DNA from: Burkholderiaceae bacterium
GTDB lineage: Bacteria > Pseudomonadota > Gammaproteobacteria > Burkholderiales > Burkholderiaceae_E
Length of the DNA: 64,000 nt
Direction: 5' to 3'
NCBI GenBank assembly: GCA_024637395.1
Contig: JAGXFG010000004.1
Span: 1-64,000 of the forward strand
Shown: positions 8,687-46,118 of the stretch, piece after piece
How the letters are laid out: every line of letters begins with the position of its first letter
Position numbering within the stretch: the stretch's first letter is position 1
The notes under the pieces: model-generated
Seen by the model: the letters and a program-made list of their open reading frames with translations, nothing else
The model's database searches: none
What the model was told of the DNA's origin: nothing
Program-made: the position numbers and the translations under genes

Positions 8687-9607
8687 TCAGAGCCCGATTC
8701 CGGTGCGCACCACCGCCTCATCAAGACCGTCAGCGCACAGCTCCACGAAACGGTAGGCGTAGCTGCGCAGGAATCTCCCCTTGCGAATCGCGATGTAGGT
8801 CGTATTGGAGCCAAAAAGGTGGGCGGCAGGCAACTGGCACAGGCCCTGGTCACGCTCGCCATCAAATGCCATCGTCGCCACGATACCGACGCCAAGTCCA
8901 CATTGGACGTAGGTCTTGATCACGTCGGCGTCAAGGGCAGAAAGGATGATGTCGACCGCCACTGCCGAATGCGCAAAGATCGCGTCGATGCCCCTGCGGC
9001 CGGTGAAGCCCTGGTGATAGGTCACTATCGGATACCGCCCGATCGCTTCCAGAGTGAGCGGCTGTACGGACGTCAGCGGATGGCCAAAGGGCACGATGAC
9101 CGAATGACTCCACTGGTAGTACGGAAAGCAGGCGATGCCCTCGCTGACCGCGACCGCCTCGGTGCAGATGCCGATATCGGCCTGCCCGTCCAGCAGGTGG
9201 CTGACGATTTCGGTCGGGCTGCCCTGGTGCAGGGCCAGGTGCACCTTGGGGAACTCCTTCTTGAAAGCGACGATGACCTCCGGCAGCGCGTAGCGGGCCT
9301 GGGTGTGGGTCGTGGCAATCGTCAGCTGGCCCTGATCGCGGTTCGCGAATTGTTCGGCCAGCTGCTCGATATGCTGCGCATCGAGCAGCATGCGTTCGAC
9401 GATCTGGGCCAGTTCCTTGCCGGGTTCGGTCAGTCCCAGCAGGCGCTTGCCCTTGCGCTCGAAGATTTCGACGCCGAGTTCATCCTCGAGGTCCTTGATG
9501 TGCTTGCTGACCCCGGACTGCGAGGTGAACAGCGCGTTGGCCGCCTCGGTGAGGTTGAAGTTGCGGCGGATCGTTTCCTGGATGATCCGGAGCTGCTGGA
9601 AGTTCAT
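8687..9607 (-). CDS. cysB: LysR-type regulator, CysB/Cbl subfamily
   Basis: The 306-residue LysR regulator starts MNFQQLRIIQETIRRNFNLT with the helix-turn-helix LTEAANALFTSQSGVSKHIK, nearly the canonical CysB N-terminus. The effector domain contains TTHTQARYALPE and HQGSPTEIV, the sulfate/acetylserine-binding signature of CysB. CysB activates sulfate assimilation in response to O- or N-acetylserine. No cysteine-biosynthesis gene is nearby. It lies downstream of the frd operon terminators and 290 bp before gdh, in the same direction, so a local target is not evident. Confidence 0.93.
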   Translation of the reverse strand: MNFQQLRIIQETIRRNFNLTEAANALFTSQSGVSKHIKDLEDELGVEIFERKGKRLLGLTEPGKELAQIVERMLLDAQHIEQLAEQFANRDQGQLTIATTHTQARYALPEVIVAFKKEFPKVHLALHQGSPTEIVSHLLDGQADIGICTEAVAVSEGIACFPYYQWSHSVIVPFGHPLTSVQPLTLEAIGRYPIVTYHQGFTGRRGIDAIFAHSAVAVDIILSALDADVIKTYVQCGLGVGIVATMAFDGERDQGLCQLPAAHLFGSNTTYIAIRKGRFLRSYAYRFVELCADGLDEAVVRTGIGL

Positions 9608-9752: not shown

Positions 9753-10109
9753 TCAGAAGCCGATCGCCAGCAGCGTCCAGACAGCGATGACAGTCGCCAC
9801 CAGGGAACCACCGAAGATGATCAGTTTGAGCACCGTCCCGACATGAATGCCGAAGTCATGCAGCGTGTGATAGATCCGCAAGGCGGCATGCCACAGGAAG
9901 AACACCACGATGGCGAACAGGAACAGCTTGCCAATTATGTTCTGGGCGAACGCCATCATGTTGTCGTAGCCCAGCGCATCCGGCGGGAGCCCGATGGCGA
10001 ACGGGGCCGCGAATCCAGTGATCAGGACCAATGCCGGCCCGAACAACGCCGCCAACACTCCGCCAGCCCCGAACGGCAGCCAGAAGATCGGATCGATTGC
10101 CCGTTTCAT
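9753..10109 (-). CDS. frdD: Fumarate reductase subunit D (membrane anchor)
   Basis: The 118-residue protein has three membrane helices and begins MKRAIDPIFWLPFGAGGVLA, as E. coli-type FrdD does. It includes LFLFAIVVFFLWHAALRIYH, whose helix-II histidine and surrounding residues resemble the quinone-side anchor. With FrdC it holds FrdAB on the cytoplasmic face of the membrane and forms the quinol site; this type carries no haem. Its ATG overlaps the frdC stop by 4 bp. Tandem stem-loops follow the stop codon. Confidence 0.95.
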   Translation of the reverse strand: MKRAIDPIFWLPFGAGGVLAALFGPALVLITGFAAPFAIGLPPDALGYDNMMAFAQNIIGKLFLFAIVVFFLWHAALRIYHTLHDFGIHVGTVLKLIIFGGSLVATVIAVWTLLAIGF

Positions 10110-10504
10110 CGCGTCACCCCCATCACAAAGGCCAGGAACACGATCGTCACCACCACCGCGACCGCGACTCCGGTCCGGGTAATGGTCTCGCCCTCCAGGC
10201 GCTTGCCGCTGATGAAGATCATCGGCATGGTCTTGGGCATGATCTGGAACCAGCTCCAGGTGTGGTAAACGAACACCGCCAAAACGACGAGGTGGAAAAC
10301 CACCGAGAGCGGGCTCTGCAGAGCCTGCATGAAGCCGTCGTACGCTTCCTTGCCCTGTCCCAGCCTCACCAGTCCAACCAACAGGACGATCGCATAGGCG
10401 GCCACGATGAACGAGGTTGCCTCGCGAATCATGTAGCGGGTGAAGAACGGGTCACGCCTCCACCATCCGGACATCGAGCGTGTATAAGGTTTCCGCCCGC
10501 TCAT
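10106..10504 (-). CDS. frdC: Fumarate reductase subunit C (membrane anchor)
   Basis: The 132-residue, three-helix anchor protein has the family start SGRKPYTRSMSGWWRRDPFF, and the helix-II motif YHTWSWFQIMPKTMP with the conserved histidine and PKT loop of FrdC. It pairs with FrdD to oxidise a low-potential quinol and pass electrons to the FrdB iron-sulfur clusters. Both ends overlap their neighbours by 4 bp (ATGA type), so the four subunits should be translationally coupled. Confidence 0.95.
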   Translation of the reverse strand: MSGRKPYTRSMSGWWRRDPFFTRYMIREATSFIVAAYAIVLLVGLVRLGQGKEAYDGFMQALQSPLSVVFHLVVLAVFVYHTWSWFQIMPKTMPMIFISGKRLEGETITRTGVAVAVVVTIVFLAFVMGVTR

Positions 10505-11262
10505 TTCTGACCTCCCTGCGGCTTGAGGAACCGCCCAAAGTAGTTCAATGCGCTGTTCACCTTATTCTGGTTGACCGCGTTTGCCGGGTCGACCTTCTTC
10601 GGACAAACCTCCGAACAATAGCCCACCGCGGTACACGACCAGACACCCACTTCTTCCTCGTCGACCAGCTCCATCCGTTGCTCGGTGGCGCCGTCGCGCG
10701 AATCGACGTTGTAGCGATGCAGCAGAGCCATCAATCCGGGGCCGATGAACTTGGGATTCATCCCGAACTGCGGGCAGGCCGCATAACAGAGCATACAGTT
10801 GATGCACCCGGAGTACTGCAGGAACTGCTTGAGTTGCAGCGGCGTCTGGATGTACTCGCCCTGCTCGATCGTGCGCGGTTCCTTGGGCACGATATAGGGC
10901 GTGATCTTCTCGAGCTTGCTGATGAAGCCTTCCGCCGAAACCACCAGGTCACGTTCGATGGGGAAATGCTCCATCGGCGCTACCCGGACCTTGTTCGGGT
11001 AGAAGTCGCGCAGGAACGTGCTGCAGGCCAACTTGGGCTTGCCGCCGATCATCATCCCGCAACTGCCGCATACGGCCATCCGGCACGACCAGCGATAGCT
11101 CAGCGTCGCGTCGAGATCGTCCTTGATGGTCTGCAGGCCCTCGAGCACCGAGGTGTCGTGAGCAAACTGGACCTTATAACTCTGCCAGAAGGGCTCAGTG
11201 TCCTGCTCCGGCCGATACCGGAGCACCTCAATCTCGATCGTCTTGATCTCACTCGCGCTCAT
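10501..11262 (-). CDS. frdB: Fumarate reductase iron-sulfur subunit
   Basis: The 253-residue protein carries three clusters by sequence. The [2Fe-2S] ligands are C60, C65, C68 and C80 (SCRMAVCGSCGMM). The [4Fe-4S] and [3Fe-4S] ligands lie in CINCMLCYAACP (C153-C163) and CTAVGYCSEVCP (C210-C220). The spacing reproduces E. coli FrdB, not SdhB. The start at 11262 (MSASEIKTIEIEVLRYRP) is chosen because it overlaps the frdA stop by 4 bp and matches the family N-terminus; the frame is open further upstream only by chance. Confidence 0.97.
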   Translation of the reverse strand: MSASEIKTIEIEVLRYRPEQDTEPFWQSYKVQFAHDTSVLEGLQTIKDDLDATLSYRWSCRMAVCGSCGMMIGGKPKLACSTFLRDFYPNKVRVAPMEHFPIERDLVVSAEGFISKLEKITPYIVPKEPRTIEQGEYIQTPLQLKQFLQYSGCINCMLCYAACPQFGMNPKFIGPGLMALLHRYNVDSRDGATEQRMELVDEEEVGVWSCTAVGYCSEVCPKKVDPANAVNQNKVNSALNYFGRFLKPQGGQK

Positions 11263-13064
11263 GCACCTTGCTCCCGATTCTTTTCGGCCTTCTCTTCCAA
11301 AGCGTCGGCCTTCTCCCCCAAAGCGCCGTAGGCCCGGACCGCCGGTTGCGATTTCGTGATCTTGACGTCGCCGTAGGAGATCCGGGGCGCGTCGCTGCCC
11401 GCGTACCAGGCGAGCGAGTGCTTGAGGAAGTTGACGTCGTCGCGCTCTTCGTACCCGTCGATGCGCTGATGGGCTCCGCGCGACTCCTTGCGGTTCAAGG
11501 CCGAAAGTGCCGTTGCCTGGGCAACCTCGAGCTGACAGCCGAGTTCGAGCGCCATGAACCACTCGGTATTCCAGACGTGCGACGTGTCCGTAAGCTTGAC
11601 GTTGCGGAAACGTTCGCGCAGTTCGGCGATCTTGTTGACCGTGTCCTGCATCTCGGTCCCCAGCCGGAAGATACCGCAGCCGGTCTCCATGCTCTGGGCC
11701 ATTTCACGACGCAGAACCGAAGCCTGCTCAGTGCCGTCGCCGCTGGTAAGAAGCTTCTGAGCCTCAGCAACCGACTGTTCGGCAAGCTTGCGCAGCCGAT
11801 CGGTGTTCCCGCTTGCCTGGCTCTTGGCGAACTGCGCGGCCTCGACGCCGGCCACCTTGCCGAAAACGACGATCTCGACCAGCGAGTTCGAGCCCAGCCG
11901 ATTGGCGCCATGAATGCCGACGCTGGAACATTCGCCCGCGGCATAGAGCCCCGGCAGCGATGCCGCAGTGCGGCCATTAACCTCGATGCCGCCCATCGTG
12001 TAATGCACAGCGGGCCGCACCGGGATGGCCTCATCTGCCGGGTCGATCCCCATGAAGTCTTCGGCCAGTTCGCAGATCAGCGGCAGGCGCTCGTGCAACT
12101 TCTGCCTGCCAAGGTGGCGCAGATCGAGGTGCACATACGAGCCGTGCGGGCCATTGAGGGTCCGCCCCTTGCGCTCTTCGTGCCAGAAAGCCTGGCTCAG
12201 CCGGTCCCGTGGGCCAAGTTCCATCGCCTTGTTGCGCGGTGACGGCTCGGCCGGTCCCAGGCCGTAGTCCTGCAGGTAGCGGTAGCCGTCCTTGTTCTTG
12301 AGCAGTCCGCCCTCGCCGCGACAGGCTTCGGTGAACAGCAGCCCCGTGCCCGGCATGCAGGTCGGGTGGTACTGAACGAACTCCATGTCGCGCAAAGCGA
12401 CGCCATGGCGGTAAGCCAGAGCCATCCCGTCGCCGGTGACGACACCGCCGTTGGTGCTCTCACGGAAGATCCGGCCAGCGCCGCCGGTGGCAATGATCAC
12501 CGCCTTAGCCTGGATCATGGTGAACTTGCCGGTGCCGATCTCGATCGCCACCACGCCCTGGCAACGGCCCTCGTCGACCACCAGGTCACTGACGTAGTGT
12601 TCGTCGAAACGCTTGATCGACGGATACTTGATCGAGGTCTGGAAGAGCGTATGCAGGATATGGAACCCGCTGCGGTCGGCCGCAAACCAGGTTCGCTCGA
12701 TCTTCATCCCGCCGAAGGCCCGCACATTGACGTGCCCGTCCTCCTTGCGGCTCCACGGGCATCCCCAGTGCTCGAGCTGGATCAGCTCGGGCCGGCAATG
12801 CTCGATGAAGTAGTCGACGACGTCCTGCTCGCACAGCCAGTCGCCGCCAGCCACCGTGTCGTGAAAGTGGTGTTCGAAGCTGTCGTGGGCCTGCGTGACC
12901 CCGGCTGCTCCTCCTTCCGCGGCCACCGTGTGGCTGCGCATCGGGTAGACCTTGGAAATGAGCGCGATCTTAAGCGCCGGATCCGCCTCGGCCACGGCGA
13001 TTGCGGCGCGAAGCCCCGCCCCACCAGCCCCGACAATTGCTACATCTGCCTGAAAGACTTCCAC
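11259..13064 (-). CDS. frdA: Fumarate reductase flavoprotein subunit
   Basis: This is the catalytic subunit, reducing fumarate to succinate. The 601-residue product shows the FAD Rossmann motif IVGAGGAGLRAA (about 10-21) and the covalent FAD histidine H45 in MRSHTVAAEGG. It also has the active-site segments GGAGRIFRESTNGG, HPTCMPGTG and RPAVHYTMGGIEV. It follows E. coli FrdA closely along its whole length. GTG 13064 is the start: GAGGAG lies 6-11 nt before it and it aligns with the E. coli initiator. An ATG farther upstream would sit before the ribosome site. First gene of frdABCD, divergent from rquA across 482 bp. Confidence 0.97.
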   Translation of the reverse strand: MEVFQADVAIVGAGGAGLRAAIAVAEADPALKIALISKVYPMRSHTVAAEGGAAGVTQAHDSFEHHFHDTVAGGDWLCEQDVVDYFIEHCRPELIQLEHWGCPWSRKEDGHVNVRAFGGMKIERTWFAADRSGFHILHTLFQTSIKYPSIKRFDEHYVSDLVVDEGRCQGVVAIEIGTGKFTMIQAKAVIIATGGAGRIFRESTNGGVVTGDGMALAYRHGVALRDMEFVQYHPTCMPGTGLLFTEACRGEGGLLKNKDGYRYLQDYGLGPAEPSPRNKAMELGPRDRLSQAFWHEERKGRTLNGPHGSYVHLDLRHLGRQKLHERLPLICELAEDFMGIDPADEAIPVRPAVHYTMGGIEVNGRTAASLPGLYAAGECSSVGIHGANRLGSNSLVEIVVFGKVAGVEAAQFAKSQASGNTDRLRKLAEQSVAEAQKLLTSGDGTEQASVLRREMAQSMETGCGIFRLGTEMQDTVNKIAELRERFRNVKLTDTSHVWNTEWFMALELGCQLEVAQATALSALNRKESRGAHQRIDGYEERDDVNFLKHSLAWYAGSDAPRISYGDVKITKSQPAVRAYGALGEKADALEEKAEKNREQGA

Positions 13065-13546
13065 AGTCCCTCCTCTGAAGATCACGCCATGCCGCGCCCG
13101 GGCCCCTATACCCGCAGGCGCGTGGGTCGTATTCGACTACAAACATTCGACTACAAACAATCCCTTAACGCCAGCGGGGAATTGTAAATGATAACGGATC
13201 GTTGTCGCTTGAAACGCGAGGTGCATATATCCCCACTAGGGAGCTGGGAGTTCCATCATTAGGGTATAGTGCCGCGTTGGAAAGCTCAGCACGGGTTCAG
13301 TCTGGCAACGGACCGCTCCCGATCGAGAGATGCGTTGAACACCTGCCTGACCGTAAGTTTTCTGATGTCGGAATCTTGCCGCACGCAGGATGCCTGGAAG
13401 GTGTCCGCAACCGCCCCGCTACATCATTGTCCAACTCCGCAAGCAGCTCTGCACCGCCACGCGCGCGTGCAGTCGCTGGGCCCGCGGGAACACGCCCTGG
13501 CGCGACCCCATTATCCGTTTTGTCTGACCAACGAGGCTGTCTGAAG
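13065..13546. other. Divergent frdA-rquA control region
   Basis: The 482-bp gap between the divergent frd operon and rquA must contain both promoters. Its frd-proximal part (13130-13200) is A/T-richer and carries a 14-bp tandem repeat. I found no convincing FNR box and no riboswitch. The frame of rquA stays open back to 13202, but without a ribosome site or a recognisable protein start. Confidence 0.5.
13131..13158. repeat. Exact 14-bp tandem repeat upstream of frdA
   Basis: ATTCGACTACAAAC occurs twice with no gap (13131-13144 and 13145-13158), 67-94 nt upstream of the frdA start. The position fits a regulator-binding direct repeat or a recent slippage duplication; the sequence matches no operator I know. 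Confidence 0.6.
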
Positions 13547-14512
13547 ATGCAAACCAGTACTCAGCAGGTGCACCCCGAAGATCCCACCCTAGTCCCGGCG
13601 TCAGATGCGCCAGTGGCCAGTGTCGAAAGCCTGCAGCTGCGCGAGGCGCAGCAACCCAGCGCGACCGTGATCGAACTCGAGCCCCTGCTCGCCCCTGCGC
13701 CCAAGGCCCATGCCGAGACGCAGACTGGCGATGCACCGGCGGACAACGCGACCTGGAGGAAGTTCCACAACCACGGTATCCCCGAGTACCTGGCGCGGCG
13801 CTACTGGTGGGCCTACCTCTGGAAGGTCAGCGTCTGGTTCTTCGACCACGCCTTCATCATCAATACGATCCTGTTCGGCAACTACTACAAGCTGATGCGC
13901 GCCGCGCTCAGCCGGCTCGACCCGAAGTTTGATGGCCGGGTGTTGCAGATTACGTGCGTCTACGGCGCGTTCACCCCGTCGATGGCCGAGACCTTGCCGA
14001 ACGCCGACCTGCACCTGATGGACGTTGCTGACGTGCAACTGCAGTCGAGCCTGCGCAAGCTGCGAGTCGCCAAGGGCGCATCAGCGGCCGGCGCCACGCT
14101 GTCGCGAATGAATGCAGAAACGCTGGCCTATGCCGACAACAGCTTCGACATGGTGGTGATCTTCTTCCTGCTCCACGAATTGCCGCACGACGCGCGGGCA
14201 CGTGCGCTCGACGAGGCGATGCGGGTGCTGCGCCCCAACGGCAAGTTGCTGATCGCCGAATATGGCGAACTCGGCAACACCCACGTGCTCCATCGGGTCA
14301 AGTTCCTGCGCAATACTCTCGAGGCGATGGAGCCGTTCCTGGGACGCTTCCGCAAGGAAAACCTGGTCGAGAAAATCCGTGACACGGCCAGCCGCTCCGG
14401 CATGGCCGTGACCGACGTGTTCCACTTGCCGGTGTTCGGTGGCTTCTACCGTGTCGTCGACTTCTCGATGAAGCCGGCGGTGGAAGCTCAGTCACGCGCC
14501 GGCAAGAGCTGA
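13547..14512 (+). CDS. rquA: Rhodoquinone biosynthesis protein RquA
   Basis: RquA converts ubiquinone to rhodoquinone by replacing a ring methoxy group with an amino group. Although it has a class I SAM-methyltransferase fold, it is reported to use SAM as amino donor. Family hallmarks are visible: IPEYLARRYWWAYL (78-91), the ILFGNYYKLM segment (108-117), and a divergent motif I, VLQITCVYGAFT (132-143), replacing the usual glycine-rich SAM loop. DMVVIFFLLHELP and LRPNGKLLIAEYG follow as motifs II-III. The first 65 or so residues are a Pro/Ala-rich extension not needed for the fold. ATG 13547 is the best start but has only a weak GAGG site. It is divergent from frdABCD, whose product is the main user of rhodoquinol. 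Confidence 0.9.
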   Translation: MQTSTQQVHPEDPTLVPASDAPVASVESLQLREAQQPSATVIELEPLLAPAPKAHAETQTGDAPADNATWRKFHNHGIPEYLARRYWWAYLWKVSVWFFDHAFIINTILFGNYYKLMRAALSRLDPKFDGRVLQITCVYGAFTPSMAETLPNADLHLMDVADVQLQSSLRKLRVAKGASAAGATLSRMNAETLAYADNSFDMVVIFFLLHELPHDARARALDEAMRVLRPNGKLLIAEYGELGNTHVLHRVKFLRNTLEAMEPFLGRFRKENLVEKIRDTASRSGMAVTDVFHLPVFGGFYRVVDFSMKPAVEAQSRAGKS

Positions 14513-28064: not shown

Positions 28065-29381
28065 TCAGGATGTCCCAATCATCAGGTCGGGCAGGATTGT
28101 CACGATGCGCGGAAAGATCGTGATCAACGTCACCGCCAGGCATAGCAACAGGAAGAAGGGAAATGTCGCGCGCGTAACCTGCCAGATGTCCCGCCCGGTG
28201 AGCCCTTGGAGCACGAACAGATTGAAGCCCACCGGCGGGGTGATTTGGGCCATTTCGATGACCATCACCATATATACGCCGAACCACAGGAGGTCGATGC
28301 CAGCTGCCTGGACCATCGGCAGGATCACGGCACTGGTCAATACCAGGATGGAGATGCCTTCCAGAAAGAAGCCCAGGATGATGAAGAATACGGCGAGCAC
28401 TGCCAGCAGCATATAGTGCGACAAGCCGATGCTCTGCACCAAACCGGCCAGTACCTGCGGCACGTTTAGGAAGGCGACGGCAATCGAGAGCACCGCCGCG
28501 CGCGAGATAATGAACGCGATCATGCAGGAAACCTTGGTGGCCGAAAGCAGACTATCGGCCAAGCTCACCCACGACAACGTGCGACTCTTTGCGGCCAGAC
28601 CGAGTGCGCCAATGACGCCCATTGTGGCCGCTTCCGTCGGTGTGGCCAGACCGCCATAGATCGACCCGACCACAACGCCGATCAGCAGCAACACGGGCAG
28701 CAATTCCCGGGAATTCCATAGCTTCTGCTGGAACGACATCGGTCGGTCACGCGGTGGCACCTTGGCTGGGTTCAAGCTAGCCCAGATGGCCGTATAGGTC
28801 ATGAATAGCGCGATCACCAGCACTCCAGGAAGAACGCCGGCGATGAACAGCTTAGCGACCGACACCTGTGCCAGTACGCCATATACGATCATGACGATGG
28901 AGGGCGGAATCAGGAGCCCGAGCGTTCCCGAACCGGCCAGAGTGCCGATCATCATGTTCTCGTCGTAGCCGCGCTTCTGCAATTCAGGCAGGCTCATTCG
29001 GCCGATTGTGGCGCAGGTCACCGCGGAAGATCCCGTCACTCCGGCCATGATGCCGCAACCCAGCACATTCACATGCAGCAGGCGCCCGGGAAGCCAGCTC
29101 ACCCAGGGCCCCAACCCTTTGAACATGCTCTCCGACAGCCGTGTCCGGAACAGGATCTCACCCATCCAGACGAAGAGCGGCAAGGCGGTCAAGGCCCAGC
29201 TCCAGCTGGCATCCCACATGGTCGAAATGACGAGCGAGCCCACCGGCACGTCAGAAAAAAGGGCAAGTCCCACAATGCCTACACCGCTCAGCGAAACGGC
29301 GATCCAGATTCCGGAGCCGAGGAACAAGAGCAACGAGGCCAACAGAACAGCCAGCGCAACCAAGATCATCGACTGGTCCAT
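28065..29381 (-). CDS. dctM: TRAP transporter large permease (DctM type)
   Basis: The 438-residue protein has about 12 membrane helices and forms the sodium-driven transport channel of a TRAP system. Typical segments are FVWMGEILFRTRLSESMFKG, GCGIMAGVTGSSAVTCATIG, LIPPSIVMIVYG, and ITPPVGFNLFVLQGLTG near the C-terminus. It is the last gene of a leftward dctP-dctQ-dctM set. The 216-bp gap to purL contains no gene. A 59-codon remnant of another dctM lies on the opposite strand at 36652. Confidence 0.95.
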   Translation of the reverse strand: MDQSMILVALAVLLASLLLFLGSGIWIAVSLSGVGIVGLALFSDVPVGSLVISTMWDASWSWALTALPLFVWMGEILFRTRLSESMFKGLGPWVSWLPGRLLHVNVLGCGIMAGVTGSSAVTCATIGRMSLPELQKRGYDENMMIGTLAGSGTLGLLIPPSIVMIVYGVLAQVSVAKLFIAGVLPGVLVIALFMTYTAIWASLNPAKVPPRDRPMSFQQKLWNSRELLPVLLLIGVVVGSIYGGLATPTEAATMGVIGALGLAAKSRTLSWVSLADSLLSATKVSCMIAFIISRAAVLSIAVAFLNVPQVLAGLVQSIGLSHYMLLAVLAVFFIILGFFLEGISILVLTSAVILPMVQAAGIDLLWFGVYMVMVIEMAQITPPVGFNLFVLQGLTGRDIWQVTRATFPFFLLLCLAVTLITIFPRIVTILPDLMIGTS

Positions 29382-29408
29382 GCTTTACCCTGGTCAGATG
29401 ATGCGCTG

Positions 29409-29915
29409 CTATTCCAACGCACCGCGTGAATTGGCCTCGTAGCTCGGGGTCTGGCCGCGAGCGACGCAGAGCAGATCGTCCACAAGAGCCACGGTCATGA
29501 TGATCAGACCCAGAACCATGCCGGTCTGTGGAATCCAGAACGGGGCAGCCAGGAGCCCGGGGCTGATGTCGCCGAACGTATATGTTTGCCAGACGAACAA
29601 GGCTGCGCTCACCGACAGGAACCCCGTCACACTCGCCGCCGCAGCGCAGCACCACAGCTCAAAGGCCCTGCGGCTCTTGCCGGTGAAGCGGATGACCAGC
29701 ATGTTCACGCGGATATGGCCCCCCCCGCGCAAGGTATAGCCCAAGCCAAGAAACGACGAAGCCGCCAGGCAAAAACCCGCCAGCTCCGTCGAATCGACGA
29801 TCTTGCCGAAGAACCGGCCCACGATCTGCGCGAGAATGCTCACCCCGATCGCCAGCAGGAAGAAGGCCGCCAAAGCTCCGCTGAACCGGTACAAGCCGTC
29901 CAGAAACCTGCGCAA
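29409..29915 (-). CDS. dctQ: TRAP transporter small permease (DctQ type)
   Basis: The 168-residue protein has four predicted helices and the DctQ features GRFFGKIVDSTELAGFCLAA and LGLGYTLRGGGHIRVNML, the latter matching the family's RxGxHIRV motif. It couples the binding protein to the large permease. The start is a TTG at 29915 preceded by a GGAGAG site 9 nt away; no ATG fits the N-terminus better. It lies 27 bp before dctM. Confidence 0.9.
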   Translation of the reverse strand: MRRFLDGLYRFSGALAAFFLLAIGVSILAQIVGRFFGKIVDSTELAGFCLAASSFLGLGYTLRGGGHIRVNMLVIRFTGKSRRAFELWCCAAAASVTGFLSVSAALFVWQTYTFGDISPGLLAAPFWIPQTGMVLGLIIMTVALVDDLLCVARGQTPSYEANSRGALE

Positions 29916-29964
29916 GATGACTCTCTCCTCAGAAAAGCCGGAAAGACCGATTAGGAGGCGGCCT

Positions 29965-30960
29965 TCACTTCGGCGCGACCTGGCTCCTGGCCTTCAGGTA
30001 GTTGTCCAGAACCTTCTGCTCGGCGGGTAACGCAGACTGCCGCCATTCGGCAATCATGGTCTCGCCCACCTTCTTCAGTTCGGCCTGGATCGCGGGCGAA
30101 GCATCCTCCACCACCATGCCCTTACTGCGCAGTACATCGACCTTGTCGCTATTGGCCTTCTTGCTCATTTCCCGGCCGCGCGCGGTAGCATGTTCGCCAG
30201 CCTCAATCACGATCTGCTGCACATCCTTGTCCAGCCGACTCAGTGCGGCCTGATTGACGATGATCGCGTTCTTGTTGTGCATGCTACCGGTGTACGTGAA
30301 GTACTTGGTGTTCTCCCACGCTTGCACGTCGGTCCCGGTCTGGGCACTGGTGAACAACGCCTCGATCATGCCGGTGGCGAACGCCTGTGATATCTCCGCA
30401 AATGGCAGGATCGTGCTCTGGAATCCAAGCATATCGCCCATCTTTTGGGTGGGCGCCGAGTAGATGCGCAGGCGCTGGCCCTTGAAGTCGGCCACGGTCT
30501 TCACCGGCGCCTTGGTGTAGAACCCTTGGCCCGGCCAAGGCACGTAGGCCAGGACGCGCATGCCGTTCTTGCCGAACAACTCGGCGAAATACGGCTTCTG
30601 GGCCTGCGTCAGGAGCGCTTCTTCCTCGTAGTTCGACGCGATGTTGGGCAGGGCGTCCAGGATGTACATCTGACCCTCGTTGCCGTAGACGCCCAGGCGG
30701 ATCTCGCCAATCGGCACCTGCCCCGACTGGACCGCGCGCTTGATGGCGTCATGCTTGATGAGGGTGTCATTGGAGCGGAGATCGATCTTCAGCCGACCTT
30801 GGCTCTTGGTTTCCACTTCCTTGATGAACTCACGAATGTTCTGAGTAAAGAAGTTGCTCTCGGGGTAACCCGATGCCATGGTCCAGGTCGTGGCTGCGGT
30901 GGCAGTCGATGCTGCCGTCACGCACAAGGCCAACGCGGTAAACAGATGACGAGGTTTCAT
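29965..30960 (-). CDS. dctP: TRAP transporter solute-binding protein (DctP type)
   Basis: The 331-residue periplasmic protein has a Sec signal (residues 1-22). DctP hallmarks are visible: SGYPESNFFTQNIREF, GQVPIGEIRLG, VKTVADFKGQRLRIYSAP (which carries the ligand carboxylate-binding arginine) and LFTSAQTGTDVQAWE. Ligands of this family are usually organic acids. Divergent hyuA-hyuB and an aminotransferase suggest an N-containing acid such as a hydantoin, oxoproline-like or carbamoyl compound; this is inference. Confidence 0.93.
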   Translation of the reverse strand: MKPRHLFTALALCVTAASTATAATTWTMASGYPESNFFTQNIREFIKEVETKSQGRLKIDLRSNDTLIKHDAIKRAVQSGQVPIGEIRLGVYGNEGQMYILDALPNIASNYEEEALLTQAQKPYFAELFGKNGMRVLAYVPWPGQGFYTKAPVKTVADFKGQRLRIYSAPTQKMGDMLGFQSTILPFAEISQAFATGMIEALFTSAQTGTDVQAWENTKYFTYTGSMHNKNAIIVNQAALSRLDKDVQQIVIEAGEHATARGREMSKKANSDKVDVLRSKGMVVEDASPAIQAELKKVGETMIAEWRQSALPAEQKVLDNYLKARSQVAPK

Positions 30961-31465
30961 GCTGGTCTCCTAGATAAGTGGCCCGATCTGTCTGAATATT
31001 CAATCGGATTTGATCAGCGGGCTAGCGGCAGTCTAGCATTGATATCAGCGCTATATACCCATACAGCCCAGCTTCACAGGCAGCTGTAATCGTGTCCTGA
31101 GTCGTCGAACTCTGCGCTATGGAGCAGAGCTTTCGGCGCCCCGCATGGAATAACGCGAGGAATCAAACAATAATATAAACTGCGATCACCCTGCTCGTCA
31201 TCCGCGCGCATAGTGGTAGGTTAGACGTCGCCCTTGGCAGGGCGGATAACCGGCAGACCGCCACCGTCGCACCAGTGGGTGCGGTGCGCGGTCCCGCTGG
31301 TAGATGCGACTGGATCCAATGGGGTTGGGATGCCCGGGCCAGTTGGGTTTGGTGGGTGCAGGTGATCAATCTTCGGGGCGAAAGAGCAGCGCGGCATGTT
31401 GCCCGAACCCCGGGGCCCGCCGGCAAAGGATGGCGGGCAGGGGCGGGAAAACTGGGCAACGGAGA
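30961..31465. other. Divergent dctP-hyuA control region
   Basis: About 505 bp separate the divergent TRAP and hydantoinase operons. The dctP-proximal 200 bp are A/T-rich and probably hold both promoters. The hyuA-proximal part is G/C-rich without a recognisable protein or RNA structure. No regulator gene is present, so control must come from elsewhere. Confidence 0.45.
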
Positions 31466-33586
31466 ATGCGCGTGAATGGCACAGAACAGCAGGTACGGGT
31501 AGGGGTCGATATCGGGGGCACCTTTACCGACATTGCCCTGGAGTTGGGCAGCAGTCTCTATTCCGCCAAAGTCTTGACCGACTACACGGCTCCCGAGCGC
31601 GCGATTTTGGCGGGCCTGCAGCAGGTTCTTGACCAAGCCGGGTTAGCCCATGGCGATATCGCGGTCATTATTCATGGAACCACACTGGCGACCAATGCGC
31701 TCATCGAGCGCAGCGGGGCGCGTACGGCGCTGATCACGACCGAAGGATTCCGAGACGTGATCGAGATGCGGTCGGAAAACCGTTTTGAACAGTACGACCT
31801 GAACATAGCGTTACCGCAGGCCCTCGTGGATCGCTGCGACCGCTACGTACTGCGCGAACGCATGGGCGCCCAGGGGCAGGTGCTGGTGGCGCTACGCCAG
31901 GTCGACATCGACGCACTTGTTGATGTCATTCGCCAAGGCGGGTATGAAAGCGTAGCGGTCGGCTTCCTGCACAGCTACATGAATGCGGCGCATGAAGTGA
32001 TGGTGCGTGACGCGCTGACCAGCGCGCTGCCAAATCTATCGGTTTCGATTTCGGCAGAAGTCTCCCCACAGATGCGCGAATACGAACGCTTCAATACGGT
32101 GTGCGCAAACGCCTATGTGAAGCCTCTCATGAAATCCTGCCTCGATCGGCTGGTGACGGCCTTGCAGCAGTCAGGGTGCCATTGTCCGCTGTTCATGATG
32201 CATTCTGGCGGCGGCATAATCTCGGTGGAAACCGCTGCCGAATTCCCGGTGCGGTTGGTGGAATCGGGCCCTGCGGGCGGCGCGATCTTCGCGGCGAACG
32301 TTGCCGAACGACATGGCCTGGAATCGGTGATGTCTTTCGACATGGGCGGCACGACCGCCAAAATTTGCCTGATCCAGAACTACGCGCCAAAGACGACCAA
32401 GACTTTCGAGGTCGCGCGGACCTATCGGTTCAAGAAGGGCAGTGGCATGCCCATTTCTGTACCGGTAGTGGAAATGGTGGAGATCGGCGCTGGTGGGGGC
32501 TCGATAGCAAGCATCGATTCCTTGCACCAGATTCGCGTGGGGCCACGCAGCGCCGGATCCGAGCCAGGCCCGGCCTGCTACCAGCGCGGTGGCGAAGAGC
32601 CAACGGTGACCGATGCGGATCTGATTCTGGGTGCTCTGGACCCGGACTACTTCGCGGGCGGTGCCATGACCCTTTCGCGCGAGAATGCTGAAACGGCGAT
32701 TCGTTCCCGCGTCGGCGACCCCTTGTCGCTGGATGCGGAAATCGCCGCCTATGGCGTAGTCGAGGTCGTGGACGAGAATATGTCCAACGCCGGCCGCGTC
32801 CACGCGGTGGAAAGCGGCTTCGACATCAGTGATTTCACCATGGTCACCTTTGGCGGGGCGGGACCCGTGCATGCCGGTCGGCTCTGTGAGAAGCTGGGGG
32901 TGACCCGATTCATCGTCCCTCAGGGTGCCGGCGTGGGTTCGGCCATTGGCTTCCTGCGCGCACCGTTCAGCTTTGAAGCTGCACGCAGTGGCTACCAGCG
33001 CCTGAGTCGCTTTGACGCGGGAGCACTAAACCGCCTGGTGCGCGGATTGACCGAAGAGGCGATCGCTTTCGCGCGGCAGGGGATTTCCGCAGGCGATCCG
33101 ATGACCGAGCGTGTCGCCTATATGCGCTACGTCGGGCAGGGATGGGAGATCCCCGTCGCTATTCCCGATCACGACGAATACCAACCCGAAGACGTCGCCC
33201 TCTTCAAGGATCTATTCGTGCAGGCCTACACGCGCTTCTTCGGTCGTCCAATCGAAAGACTGGACATTGAGATCGTCAGCTGGTCCATCAAGGCCAGTAC
33301 GGCCCGCGTCCCCGTATCTCGCGCAGCTGCGCCGCAAGCCAGAACACCCGCTCCGGTGCGCGGGCAGCGCAGGTTGTTTGATCCGAAGCGAGGCACCTTT
33401 GTGCAAGCCCAAGTCTGCCATCGCGAGGATCTCGTGCCGGGGGCGTTTGTGGCCGGGCCGGCGGTGGTGGTCGAACGCGAAACCGCGACCGTGATTTCTG
33501 CGGAATTCGAGGCGGTGGTGCAGGAAGACCTGTCCCTCCTGGTGTCCTTGCGGGACAACGCGCACGCCATTGTGAGCAAGAAATGA
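31466..33586 (+). CDS. hyuA: Hydantoinase/oxoprolinase family protein, HyuA
   Basis: The 706-residue ATP-dependent amidohydrolase subunit carries the actin-like ATPase motif GVDIGGTFTDIALELG near the N-terminus. Further motifs are HGTTLATNALIERSGA, FNTVCANAYVKPLM, SFDMGGTTAKICL, GAGGGSIASID and GPRSAGSEPGPACY. With HyuB it opens hydantoins, N-methylhydantoins or 5-oxoproline at the cost of ATP. ATG 31466 is only 2 nt from GGAG; GTG 31472, two codons on, has the better spacing and may be the real start. It overlaps hyuB by 4 bp. Confidence 0.93.
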   Translation: MRVNGTEQQVRVGVDIGGTFTDIALELGSSLYSAKVLTDYTAPERAILAGLQQVLDQAGLAHGDIAVIIHGTTLATNALIERSGARTALITTEGFRDVIEMRSENRFEQYDLNIALPQALVDRCDRYVLRERMGAQGQVLVALRQVDIDALVDVIRQGGYESVAVGFLHSYMNAAHEVMVRDALTSALPNLSVSISAEVSPQMREYERFNTVCANAYVKPLMKSCLDRLVTALQQSGCHCPLFMMHSGGGIISVETAAEFPVRLVESGPAGGAIFAANVAERHGLESVMSFDMGGTTAKICLIQNYAPKTTKTFEVARTYRFKKGSGMPISVPVVEMVEIGAGGGSIASIDSLHQIRVGPRSAGSEPGPACYQRGGEEPTVTDADLILGALDPDYFAGGAMTLSRENAETAIRSRVGDPLSLDAEIAAYGVVEVVDENMSNAGRVHAVESGFDISDFTMVTFGGAGPVHAGRLCEKLGVTRFIVPQGAGVGSAIGFLRAPFSFEAARSGYQRLSRFDAGALNRLVRGLTEEAIAFARQGISAGDPMTERVAYMRYVGQGWEIPVAIPDHDEYQPEDVALFKDLFVQAYTRFFGRPIERLDIEIVSWSIKASTARVPVSRAAAPQARTPAPVRGQRRLFDPKRGTFVQAQVCHREDLVPGAFVAGPAVVVERETATVISAEFEAVVQEDLSLLVSLRDNAHAIVSKK

Positions 33587-35265
33587 CGAATCCGATCGCT
33601 AACATTCACATGCAGGTCATGTGGAACCGCCTGATCTCCGTGGTCGAAGAACAGGCTTTGACCCTGGTACGGACCGCCTTTAGCACCAGCGTGCGGGAAG
33701 CAGGCGACCTTTCTGCAGGGGTGTTTGACCGCGCTGGACGCATGCTGGCGCAGGCGGTTACCGGCACGCCCGGTCACGTGAATGCCATGGCCGAAGCGGT
33801 TGGACATTTCATCCGCGATATCGGTGAGGCCCGTATTTTCGAAGGCGACGTCTACATTACGAACGACCCTTGGAAGGGCACTGGACACCTGCACGACATC
33901 ACCGTGGTCACCCCTTCGTTCTGCGCCGGAGAGCTGATCGGATATTTCGCCTGCACCGCGCATGTGGTCGACATCGGTGGCCGCGGTTTCGGGCCTGGCG
34001 GACGGGAAGTCTACGAAGAGGGTCTGTTTATTCCGATCATGAAATTCGCCGAACGCGGCGAGGTCAATCAAGATCTGGTCAACATCGTCGCCAACAACGT
34101 TCGGGAGGCGGATCAGGTGGTGGGCGATATCTACTCGCTGGCCGCATGTAACGAAACGGGGCAGCAGCGCCTGATGACCATGCTGGACGAGTTTGACCTA
34201 GCCGATCTGGAAGAACTGGGCACCTTCATCCTTGAACACAGCCGGCGCGCAACGCTGGAAAGAATCGCGGCGCTGCCCAAAGGTGTCTACGAGAACAGTA
34301 TGGAACTGGACGGCTACGACGTGCCGGTAAAGCTGGTGGTGAAGCTTTGCATCGACGAAAACGGCATCCTGGCTGATTTCGCGGGAACCACGGGCTGCAG
34401 CAGCTATGGCATCAACGTTCCCGTCATCTATACCAAGGCCTACTCCGGCTACGGATTGAAGTGCGCGATCGCCCCTGAGATCCCCAACAATGCGGGGTCC
34501 CTTGCGCCGTTTGACGTATCGGCGCCGCCCGGCTGCATCCTGAACGCGCTGCGTCCCAGCCCGGTAGCCGTACGTCACGTGCTCGGCCACTTCGTGCCTG
34601 ACTTGGTGCTTGGCGCGCTGCACGGCTCTCTCCCTGAGCAGATTCCAGCCGAAGGTGCCGGCGCGACCTGGAACATTCATATCAGCGCACGCGCGCGTTC
34701 CGATGCAAGGCCAGACGTCGAGCGCAAGTCGAGCGAGATACTCATGTTCAACAGTGGCGGCGGAGGGGCTCGTCCCGGTCTGGACGGCCTGCACGCTACG
34801 GCCTTTCCAAGCGGAGTGCGCACCATGCCGGTGGAGGCTACCGAACAGGTGGGTCCGATCGTCGTCTGGCGCAAGGAATTACGTCCGGACTCCGGCGGCG
34901 CAGGCTGCATGCGCGGTGGACTGGGTCAGGTGGTCGAGATTGCCGCAGCCGAGGGCTACCAGATTCACTTCAACGCCATGTTCGACCGTACGCGTTTTGC
35001 GGCGCGTGGACGCAATGGAGGTGGCGAAGGCCAGGCCGGCACCGTCGCGCTGGACGACGGCACCGTCTTGCGCGGCAAGGGCTCGCGCATCGAAGTACCG
35101 GTGGGCCGCAGCGTGGTGCTGAGTCTGCCCGGCGGGGGGGGCCATGGCGCGCCAGCCGCGCGTAGTCCGCAGGCGGTGGCAAGCGATGTGAAGAATGGCT
35201 ACGTGTCGGCGGAGCGTGCTCGCGACGACTACGGCTATGTGTCGCACGTCAAGCCGGCAAACTAA
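33583..35265 (+). CDS. hyuB: Hydantoinase B / oxoprolinase family protein, HyuB
   Basis: The 560-residue subunit shows the HyuB signatures VEEQALTLVRTAFSTSVREA, NDPWKGTGHLHDITVV, GRGFGPGGREVYEEGL, NSGGGGARPGLDG and the C-terminal SLPGGGGHGAP. It forms the ATP-dependent lactamase complex with HyuA, to which it is coupled by ATGA overlap. An aminotransferase follows 21 bp later. The true substrate cannot be read from either subunit. Confidence 0.93.
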   Translation: MTNPIANIHMQVMWNRLISVVEEQALTLVRTAFSTSVREAGDLSAGVFDRAGRMLAQAVTGTPGHVNAMAEAVGHFIRDIGEARIFEGDVYITNDPWKGTGHLHDITVVTPSFCAGELIGYFACTAHVVDIGGRGFGPGGREVYEEGLFIPIMKFAERGEVNQDLVNIVANNVREADQVVGDIYSLAACNETGQQRLMTMLDEFDLADLEELGTFILEHSRRATLERIAALPKGVYENSMELDGYDVPVKLVVKLCIDENGILADFAGTTGCSSYGINVPVIYTKAYSGYGLKCAIAPEIPNNAGSLAPFDVSAPPGCILNALRPSPVAVRHVLGHFVPDLVLGALHGSLPEQIPAEGAGATWNIHISARARSDARPDVERKSSEILMFNSGGGGARPGLDGLHATAFPSGVRTMPVEATEQVGPIVVWRKELRPDSGGAGCMRGGLGQVVEIAAAEGYQIHFNAMFDRTRFAARGRNGGGEGQAGTVALDDGTVLRGKGSRIEVPVGRSVVLSLPGGGGHGAPAARSPQAVASDVKNGYVSAERARDDYGYVSHVKPAN

Positions 35266-43405: not shown

Positions 43406-45997
43406 TTAGCTGGCCTTGGCAACCTGAAGCCTGCGCCGTTGAATCGCAATGATGCCGGCCAGCAGCAATATGGCCGGAATGAACAGCCATTCCTTGTCGG
43501 GTCGATCGGTCGGGACTTCGAGCCCGACGATCTTGAAGCTCTGTTCGAGACCCATCTTTTCGGCAGCGCTGCCAAATCGGACCGCGGCAACCGTGATGTC
43601 GCCGCCAAATGCCATGACCGTCAGTCCCGCCTCCTTGAGACGCTGGGCGCCCGGGCCAGGCTTGCCAAGCGGCAGCAACACACCCTTGCTAACGGTCTTG
43701 CCCTCGAGCGACTCGCCCTCGACGTAGATCCGCAGCCGCTCATCCGCCGGCTTGCTCTCCGCGATCTGCATGAGCTCGGTAGGCGCAATCTCCTTGAACT
43801 GCGGGTAGATCATGTCAAGCCAGAACCCCGGCCGGAAGAGCGTGAAGGTCACCAGCAGCAAGAGGACATTCTCGTACCACTTGCTCCTCACCAGGAAATA
43901 CCCCTGGGTGGCCGCCGCAAAAAGCAGCATCGCGACCGTTGCGCTGACCACGGTGAATATCAGGTGGATCGGCGATTTGATCCCGATCAGCAGCAGTTCG
44001 GTGTTGAAGATGAACAGGAACGGCAGGATCGCGGTCCTCATGCTGTAGTAGAACGCCGTGATCCCGGTCTTGATCGGATCGGCACGGGCGATCGCCGCGG
44101 CTGCGAACGATGCCAGCCCAACCGGCGGCGTGACGTCAGCCATCAGTCCGAAATAGAACACGAACATATGAACGGCAATCAGCGGGACCAACAGGCCGTT
44201 CTGGGCACCGAGTTCGACGACGACCGGAGCCATCAGGGTCGACACCACGATGTAGTTCGCGGTCGTCGGCAAGCCCATGCCGAGAATCAGGCTGATGAAC
44301 GCCACCAGCACCAGCATCAAGATCAGGTTGCCTCCCGAGACCATCTCGACCAGCTCGGTCATCACCAGGCCGATGCCGGTCAGGGAAACGGTACCGACGA
44401 TGATGCCGGCCGCCGCGGTCGCGACGCCGATGCCGATCATGTTGCGTGCGCCAGCGACCATGCCGTCCATCAGGTCGTGAAAGCCAATCTTCATGGCGGC
44501 GCCCATCTCGCCCGACTGGCCGCGCATCCAGGCCGTCACCGGCCGCTGCGTCACCATGATCATCACCATGAACATGGTCGCCCAGAACGCCGACAGACCG
44601 GGCGAGAGCTGCTCGACCATCAGGCACCAGATCAGGACCACCACCGAGAGCAGGTAATGCAGCCCGGACTTGAGGGTCGGTCCGGCTTCCGGCAGCTCGA
44701 AGACCGGGGCGTCTGGGTCGTCCAGTTCCAGCACCGGCTGGCGCGAGCCATACCACAGCAGCGCCAGGTAGGTCGCCATGAGCAACACCCCGATGATGAG
44801 GGATGCCACGTTCGGGAGCACCACCTTGATCCAGCCAATGCCGTAGTAGACGACACCGGAGAACACGATCAGCCCGAGCACCGTGAAGGCGAAGGCCAGC
44901 AGCCGCTGGACGAATGTCGAATGGCCGCGTCGCGGCAGGCCGCTGATATTGGCCTTGAGTGCCTCGAGGTGGACGATATAGAAGAGCGCTATATAGGAGA
45001 TGATCGCCGGCAGGAAGGCGTTCTTGATCACCTCGGTATAGGGAATGCCGACGTACTCGACCATCAGGAACGCGGCTGCGCCCATCACCGGCGGCATGAT
45101 CTGGCCATTGACCGAACTCGACACTTCGACCGCACCGGCCTGATCCGGCCGGTAGCCGACCCGTTTCATCAGCGGGATCGTGAAGGTTCCGGTGGTCACC
45201 ACGTTGGCGATCGACGAACCTGAGATGATGCCGGTGGCCGCCGACGACACCACCGCCGCCTTGGCCGGGCCGCCCCGCATGTGACCGAGCAGAGCGAACG
45301 CCGACTTGATGAAGTAGTTACCCGCGCCGGCCTTGTCGAGCAAGGAACCAAAGAGCACGAACAGGAAGATGAAGCTGGTCGAAACGCCCAGCGCGATCCC
45401 GAACACCCCCTCGGTCGTCAGCCACATGTGGTTCATTCCCTTGGCCAGCGACGCCCCCTTGTGGGCAATCATCTCGGGCATGTACTGGCCGCCGAACATG
45501 TAGACCAGGAACAGCAGCGCGACCACGGTCATCGGCGGACCCAGAACGCGGCGGGTAGATTCGAGCAGCAGCACTATGCCGACCACCGCAACAACCAGGT
45601 CCACAGTGGTCGGTTGACCAGGGCGGGTCGAGAGCTGCGCGTAGAACAGGAAGATGTAGCCGGCGCAGAAAGCGCCTGCGAGCGCGAATATCCAGTCGAT
45701 GACCGGCACGTACTGGCGCGGCGAACGCTTGAAGGCCGGATATGCGGTGAAGGCCAGGAAGATCGCCAAGGCAAGGTGGATCGATCGCGCCTCCGTGGCA
45801 TTGAAGACCAGCACGCCAAAGGTGTAGGGCAAGGGCGAGGCATACCAGAGCTGGAAAATCGCCCAGAACAGTGCTACGCCCAACACCAGCTGCGCGACAA
45901 ACCCGGTGGGATTGCGTCCCCCGGTATCATTCTCGGAAACCAGCTCCTTGATTTTATCGCTGTCCAATTGGGCTGCCTGCTCCGCCTTCTTGCTCAT
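43406..45997 (-). CDS. TRAP transporter fused permease (DctQM, 4TM/12TM)
   Basis: The 863-residue fusion joins an N-terminal DctQ-like four-helix part (about residues 1-200) to a DctM-like part carrying GSLLDKAGAGNYFIKSAFAL and GGPAKAAVVSSAATGIISGS. Further motifs are GIGLVMTELVEMVSGGNLIL and LPTTANYIVVSTLM. A C-terminal DUF3394-like region follows (from about residue 690) with a final helix near VPTDRPDKEWLFIPAILLLA. It works with the TAXI receptor upstream. ATG 45997 has a GGAGGAGG site. A long hairpin separates it from the receptor gene. Confidence 0.94.
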   Translation of the reverse strand: MSKKAEQAAQLDSDKIKELVSENDTGGRNPTGFVAQLVLGVALFWAIFQLWYASPLPYTFGVLVFNATEARSIHLALAIFLAFTAYPAFKRSPRQYVPVIDWIFALAGAFCAGYIFLFYAQLSTRPGQPTTVDLVVAVVGIVLLLESTRRVLGPPMTVVALLFLVYMFGGQYMPEMIAHKGASLAKGMNHMWLTTEGVFGIALGVSTSFIFLFVLFGSLLDKAGAGNYFIKSAFALLGHMRGGPAKAAVVSSAATGIISGSSIANVVTTGTFTIPLMKRVGYRPDQAGAVEVSSSVNGQIMPPVMGAAAFLMVEYVGIPYTEVIKNAFLPAIISYIALFYIVHLEALKANISGLPRRGHSTFVQRLLAFAFTVLGLIVFSGVVYYGIGWIKVVLPNVASLIIGVLLMATYLALLWYGSRQPVLELDDPDAPVFELPEAGPTLKSGLHYLLSVVVLIWCLMVEQLSPGLSAFWATMFMVMIMVTQRPVTAWMRGQSGEMGAAMKIGFHDLMDGMVAGARNMIGIGVATAAAGIIVGTVSLTGIGLVMTELVEMVSGGNLILMLVLVAFISLILGMGLPTTANYIVVSTLMAPVVVELGAQNGLLVPLIAVHMFVFYFGLMADVTPPVGLASFAAAAIARADPIKTGITAFYYSMRTAILPFLFIFNTELLLIGIKSPIHLIFTVVSATVAMLLFAAATQGYFLVRSKWYENVLLLLVTFTLFRPGFWLDMIYPQFKEIAPTELMQIAESKPADERLRIYVEGESLEGKTVSKGVLLPLGKPGPGAQRLKEAGLTVMAFGGDITVAAVRFGSAAEKMGLEQSFKIVGLEVPTDRPDKEWLFIPAILLLAGIIAIQRRRLQVAKAS

Positions 45998-46118
45998 GTC
46001 TGCCTCCTCCCCTTGCACCGCCACTGCACCGGTGAGCGACAGGCCGCAATAACCCCCGCCGTCCCGGCAAGTTCGCGAGGTGGCGTGGGTCGGCCCGGCC
46101 CCGCAAGTTCGTACTGCA

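Follow-up and report, generated by a model that had tools for sequence, protein, structure and literature searches.

An E. coli-type fumarate reductase operon beside rquA encodes the only complex II found in a genus of Burkholderiaceae

Results

An intact frdABCD operon lies divergent from rquA

The window, i.e. the whole 64,000-nucleotide stretch of DNA analysed here, carries on its minus strand an intact frdABCD operon of the E. coli type (9753–13064), with profile scores far above chance and gene ends that overlap by ATGA at each of the frdA/B, B/C and C/D junctions (Table 1). The frdA gene most likely starts at the GTG at 13064, which is preceded by AGGAGG, in place of the start of the longer open reading frame at 13085. 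Against the NCBIfam models, FrdA scored 1035 bits for PRK09231 (cut-off 854) and 935 bits for TIGR01176 (cut-off 932.7), FrdB 382 bits for PRK12385 (cut-off 333) and FrdD 118.7 bits (cut-off 60), the latter also matching Pfam PF02313 with 126 bits. FrdC reached 108 bits, below the NCBIfam cut-off of 143; despite this shortfall, its identity is settled by the Pfam family Fumarate_red_C (PF02300), which it matches with 154 bits versus a cut-off of 24.

Table 1. Features of the frd–rquA locus (window coordinates)
Feature	Position	Strand	Basis or remark
frdA, fumarate reductase flavoprotein	11259..13064	-	NCBIfam PRK09231, TIGR01176; 1KF6_A
frdB, iron-sulfur subunit	10501..11262	-	NCBIfam PRK12385; 1KF6_B
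frdC, membrane subunit	10106..10504	-	Pfam PF02300; 1KF6_C
frdD, membrane subunit	9753..10109	-	Pfam PF02313; 1KF6_D
divergent frdA–rquA gap	13065..13546	.	482 bp
rquA, rhodoquinone biosynthesis SAM-dependent amino-transfer enzyme, 321 aa, clade II	13547..14512	+	NF038261, trees

Comparison with the PDB returned the E. coli quinol:fumarate reductase (QFR) 1KF6 as the best solved match for all four subunits, which share with it the gene order and, in the alignments, the active-site and quinone-site residues. FrdA (857 bits to 1KF6_A) keeps the His that links FAD and, in its AAEGG motif, the Glu typical of QFR; in FrdB (304 bits to 1KF6_B), the cluster cysteines and Lys228 are aligned, as are Arg28-Glu29 in FrdC; FrdD keeps Arg81 and His84, aligned as the Arg and the second His of an HRMHH stretch. 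We take the roles of these residues to be FAD linkage for the His, Fe-S binding for the cysteines and a place in the quinone site for Lys228(B), Glu29(C) and Arg81/His84(D). The Glu of FrdA favours fumarate reduction, and SdhA has Gln at this position. Unlike E. coli, the host of the window has neither a menaquinone pathway nor a partner succinate dehydrogenase (SDH), and a gene for a rhodoquinone enzyme adjoins the operon. The dN/dS values of 0.04–0.11 for frdA and rquA (about 0.1 for rquA) indicate purifying selection like that on gltA and sucA.

The divergent gap contains one sigma70-like site for frd, at 13208–13181, and a TATAGT-bearing block of ~80 bp (about 13256–13340) that the genus conserves and that is 92–94% identical in two congeners while the rest of the gap varies; this block is possibly the promoter and leader of rquA. 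The gap holds no FNR-consensus site, and counts of such sites over the window equal chance expectation. No riboswitch or other known RNA was found in the gap, Rfam giving no match. Directly downstream of frdD lies a gene for a CysB-family LysR regulator (8687–9607), in a position conserved across the genus. Further away, the window encodes a hydantoinase/caprolactamase-like pair of alpha and beta subunits (31304–35265), with TRAP transporters nearby (28065–30960 and 43406–46024).

The rquA product belongs to a second, divergent RquA clade

The ATG at 13547, rather than the TTG at 13202, is the start of rquA, as the N-terminal M(Q/R)TS... is conserved in four species. The protein scored 177.9 bits against NF038261 (NCBIfam), just above the cut-off of 175. 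Across 369 genomes sampled from the class, the RquA scores form one group at 225–319 bits and another at 143–183 bits, the next match being only at 72, and the tree recovers the same two groups as clades I and II, with the window RquA in clade II. In a tree with 14 other methyltransferases, including E. coli UbiE and UbiG (Rhodospirillum rubrum RquA is absent from this tree), clades I and II together are set apart, with support of 100/99, from UbiE, UbiG and the closest of the other methyltransferases. The earlier note had recognised a gene with RquA hallmarks divergent from a complete E. coli-type frd operon; the family scores confirm both, and the protein branches with RquA as that assignment required.

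The window RquA shares 31–38% identity with the clade I proteins used for comparison and keeps the RquA-wide motifs, namely the altered motif I CVYG, the equivalent of R. rubrum Asp118, HE-P and EPF. Relative to the RquA of R. rubrum and other Pseudomonadota, it differs by its clade, by a longer, variable N-terminus and by an Asn at the position of Asp143, which is Asp or Asn within clade II and Asn throughout the genus; note that the R. rubrum numbering was placed by way of a 25-residue interval found in clade I. Asp118 and Asp143 are SAM-contact residues of which the double mutant alone was assayed in R. rubrum (PMC9814641). A deep split within RquA, into groups A and B, was described previously (Stairs 2018, PMC5953543). 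A distant rquA from beyond the Pseudomonadota did not lead to rhodoquinone formation in E. coli (PMC13386864), which calls for care over any claim of rhodoquinone synthesis. The conversion of ubiquinone to rhodoquinone by the window RquA thus remains a prediction from its sequence, because no characterised RquA tied to clade II was found and because Asn occupies the Asp143 position. No solved RquA structure was found either, the best PDB matches being distant methyltransferases. The three closest public relatives by RquA are the MAGs Ww69, KA15 and LH_M2 (Burkholderiaceae bacterium), which have the same RquA sequences as the congeners G369, G371 and G370, respectively.

The host lacks a menaquinone pathway and carries a UbiU/UbiV-like pair

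The earlier note had made its reading conditional on a host without menaquinone genes, and no menaquinone pathway was detected: the genome has no MenD above cut-off and no MqnA/D of the futalosine route, and its best MenA-like protein, a UbiA-family prenyltransferase (G000:C87:24661-25395), scored 111 bits versus a cut-off of 264, with the rest of the menaquinone pathway absent. The MenD-like matches, all below cut-off, are acetolactate synthase and related thiamine-diphosphate enzymes. This MenA-like protein is one of four UbiA-superfamily proteins, together with heme O synthase, UbiA and a UbiA-family fusion protein. A tandem U32 pair resembling the O2-independent ubiquinone hydroxylases UbiU/UbiV occurs in each of the four genus members, in G384, a relative that bears rquA, and in one of seven other family members tested (G387). 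The co-occurrence of this pair with rquA fits the reported association of rhodoquinone with the O2-independent ubiquinone pathway, seen in 73 of 84 genomes (PMC11707229).

Eleven of the 369 genomes encode FrdC, four of them with RquA, four with MenD, none with both and three with neither; the futalosine route was searched in the window's own genome only, so that elsewhere "neither" refers to RquA and MenD. The association between FrdC and RquA is weak (4 of 11; Fisher p = 0.017, rising to 0.064 when the own genome is left out). In addition, three frdABCD-bearing members of the family show neither RquA nor MenD. Since several genomes thus have frdABCD with neither gene, the operon alone is no proof of a low-potential quinone, and the rule implied earlier, that frd signals such a quinone, is not strict. 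In the family of the window's host, the genomes G375 (L188), G387 (L189) and G395 (L190) carry frdABCD as well as SDH, with RquA and MenD not detected.

The pair was assembled more than once

The location of rquA close to complex II genes in many bacteria is already known, and joint expression has been proposed (Stairs 2018, PMC5953543); 12 bacteria described there have a second frd/sdh operon elsewhere, unlike the genus of the window, which has none. Among 80 loci from named genomes, frdABCD stands beside rquA in 13. Three of these are from the window's genus (clade II, divergent); the ten others carry clade I rquA, which is divergent in four, downstream of frdD in five and upstream of frdA in one. 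None of the 45 other clade II loci, 24 of which have 4 kb or more of sequence on either side, has frdABCD beside rquA. The genus FrdA groups with those of G211, L148 and G332, not with own-family FrdA, and in the trees the nearest RquA relatives of the genus come from other genomes than its nearest FrdA relatives. The linkage therefore recurs, involving RquA of either clade and more than one gene order: the pair was put together more than once, which points to functional coupling and speaks against a single module that travelled.

In the genus, gene order around the locus is conserved between about 3.7 and 17.6 kb of the window, and the GC content of the site, 0.62–0.63, is ordinary (0.64 for comparison). 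RquA was not found on plasmids; three weak plasmid matches proved to be unrelated methyltransferases. The "portable module" of the earlier note is hence not borne out by this one conserved genus site with ordinary GC, nor by the plasmid search, the differing relatives of RquA and FrdA or the repeated assembly.

The operon encodes the only complex II found in the genus

We then considered the other complex II genes of the genus, sampled by four MAGs of 90–99% completeness: the genome holding the window (G000; 3.46 Mb, 131 contigs, 95.5% complete), G369, G370 and G371. In G000, TIGR01812 matches only the frdA of the window and a fragment scoring 23 bits. The latter, on contig C125, is a 256-aa contig-end fragment beside a thiamine-diphosphate enzyme, with a short C-terminal flavoprotein-like match only, and is not SdhA. 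Each of the three other genomes has a single match, the frdA divergent from rquA, and a separate SdhA, scoring about 780–805 bits, is found in most family mates.

In the family members G387, G372 and G395, the TCA locus consists of mdh followed by the divergent sdhC-sdhD-sdhA-sdhB-sdhE-gltA, with 4.8–5.4 kb between mdh and gltA and, in G372, a GntR-like regulator before sdhC. In the four species of the genus, mdh is followed by gntR-sdhE-gltA-sucA-sucB-lpd (gntR identified by Pfam in G371 and by similarity in the others), the distance from mdh to gltA is 1.3 kb, and tblastn detected none of sdhC, sdhD, sdhA and sdhB at this locus. Incompleteness is an unlikely cause of the missing sdhCDAB, because contigs span the site in four MAGs. 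SdhE (Pfam Sdh5, 66.5 bits) is encoded directly before gltA in all four species; flavinylation of both fumarate reductase and succinate dehydrogenase needs SdhE (PMC5042078). The E1 component of 2-oxoglutarate dehydrogenase is intact in all four species, sucA-sucB-lpd, gltA, mdh and aconitase are present, and the own genome encodes three COX1-family (heme-copper) oxidase subunits. Five clade II RquA genomes, 79–90% complete (G104, G186, G221, G318 and G270), show an aspartate-oxidase-like match only and no SdhA/FrdA, which may reflect incompleteness.

Overall, frdA is the only SdhA/FrdA gene of the genus in these four MAGs, sdhCDAB being gone and sdhE kept, and this is the new point. The adjacency of frd and rquA is confirmed and has known counterparts in other bacteria; it is the replacement of succinate dehydrogenase that merits further work. 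The locus had been read as one for anaerobic succinate formation: the Frd and RquA genes are indeed present, but with succinate dehydrogenase lost from the genus, the operon is more than an addition for anaerobic life.

Discussion

The explanation that we find probable is that a single Frd, as sole complex II, oxidises succinate with ubiquinone in air and reduces fumarate with rhodoquinol anaerobically, with rhodoquinone, a quinone of low potential, being made by RquA. In the presence of oxygen, the E. coli-type FrdABCD would pass electrons from succinate to ubiquinone, forming fumarate and completing the citric acid cycle; under anoxia, electrons from rhodoquinol would pass through Frd to fumarate, yielding succinate. 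RquA would turn ubiquinone into rhodoquinone, the ubiquinone for this being made without oxygen via UbiU/UbiV, and SdhE, a remnant of the TCA locus after the loss of sdhCDAB, would flavinylate FrdA. Two-way operation of Frd in vivo is what we infer from gene content and residues; counting against this explanation are the kept Glu of FrdA, an RquA near its cut-off with Asn at the Asp143 position, the lack of an FNR-consensus site, and the fact that all genomes are MAGs. Campylobacter jejuni FrdABC (PMC4178425) sets a precedent for a two-way Frd acting as the only succinate:quinone reductase; it is a three-subunit, menaquinone-linked complex, whereas the Frd of the window has four subunits in a ubiquinone/rhodoquinone organism. 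With the terms used, no description of an SDH-less ubiquinone/rhodoquinone bacterium was found among open-licence papers.

Could Frd be reductive only, as in ordinary rhodoquinone–fumarate respiration, with a TCA cycle that in air is open and branched and whose succinate is exported or otherwise used? The QFR-type FrdA, the absence of sdhCDAB and the presence of rquA alongside would all be expected in this case. The kept 2-oxoglutarate dehydrogenase complex, citrate synthase and oxidases fit a closed oxidative cycle better, and E. coli-type QFR can oxidise succinate, so we regard a purely reductive Frd as unlikely, though the most serious of the alternatives. Less probable still is that functional drift has left the clade II protein with a different quinone or methyl-transfer reaction, no rhodoquinone being made and Frd serving with ubiquinone alone as a replacement SDH. 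Its borderline score, the deep split from clade I, the Asn at the Asp143 position and the frdABCD genomes with neither RquA nor MenD would agree with such a drift, as would the failure of one rquA from outside Pseudomonadota to yield rhodoquinone in E. coli (PMC13386864); against it stand the conserved RquA-wide motifs, the co-occurring UbiU/UbiV-like pair, the linkage to frd in both clades and the fact that a deep two-group split lies within RquA itself (PMC5953543). Recent acquisition of frd–rquA as one portable unit, which the patchy distribution of rquA and the foreign affinity of the genus FrdA might suggest, is hardly credible given the collinear flanks in all congeners, the ordinary GC content, the absence of plasmid copies, the discordant nearest relatives and the three different gene orders.

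Returning to the two-way Frd, we consider the chances about even that a ubiquinone-based, O2-respiring genus swapped its SDH for an E. coli-type Frd made reversible by a change of quinone, a bacterial parallel to the quinone switching of helminth mitochondria. Chobert et al. asked whether the gain of a low-potential quinone is coupled to the gain of a fumarate reductase (PMC11707229); the genus of the window goes beyond this question, the loss of SDH being readable at its site in four species. It would offer a natural experiment on whether the enzyme or the quinone decides the direction of complex II, with a two-quinone chain that has a single complex II and no menaquinone, and that could be rebuilt and tested in E. 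coli.
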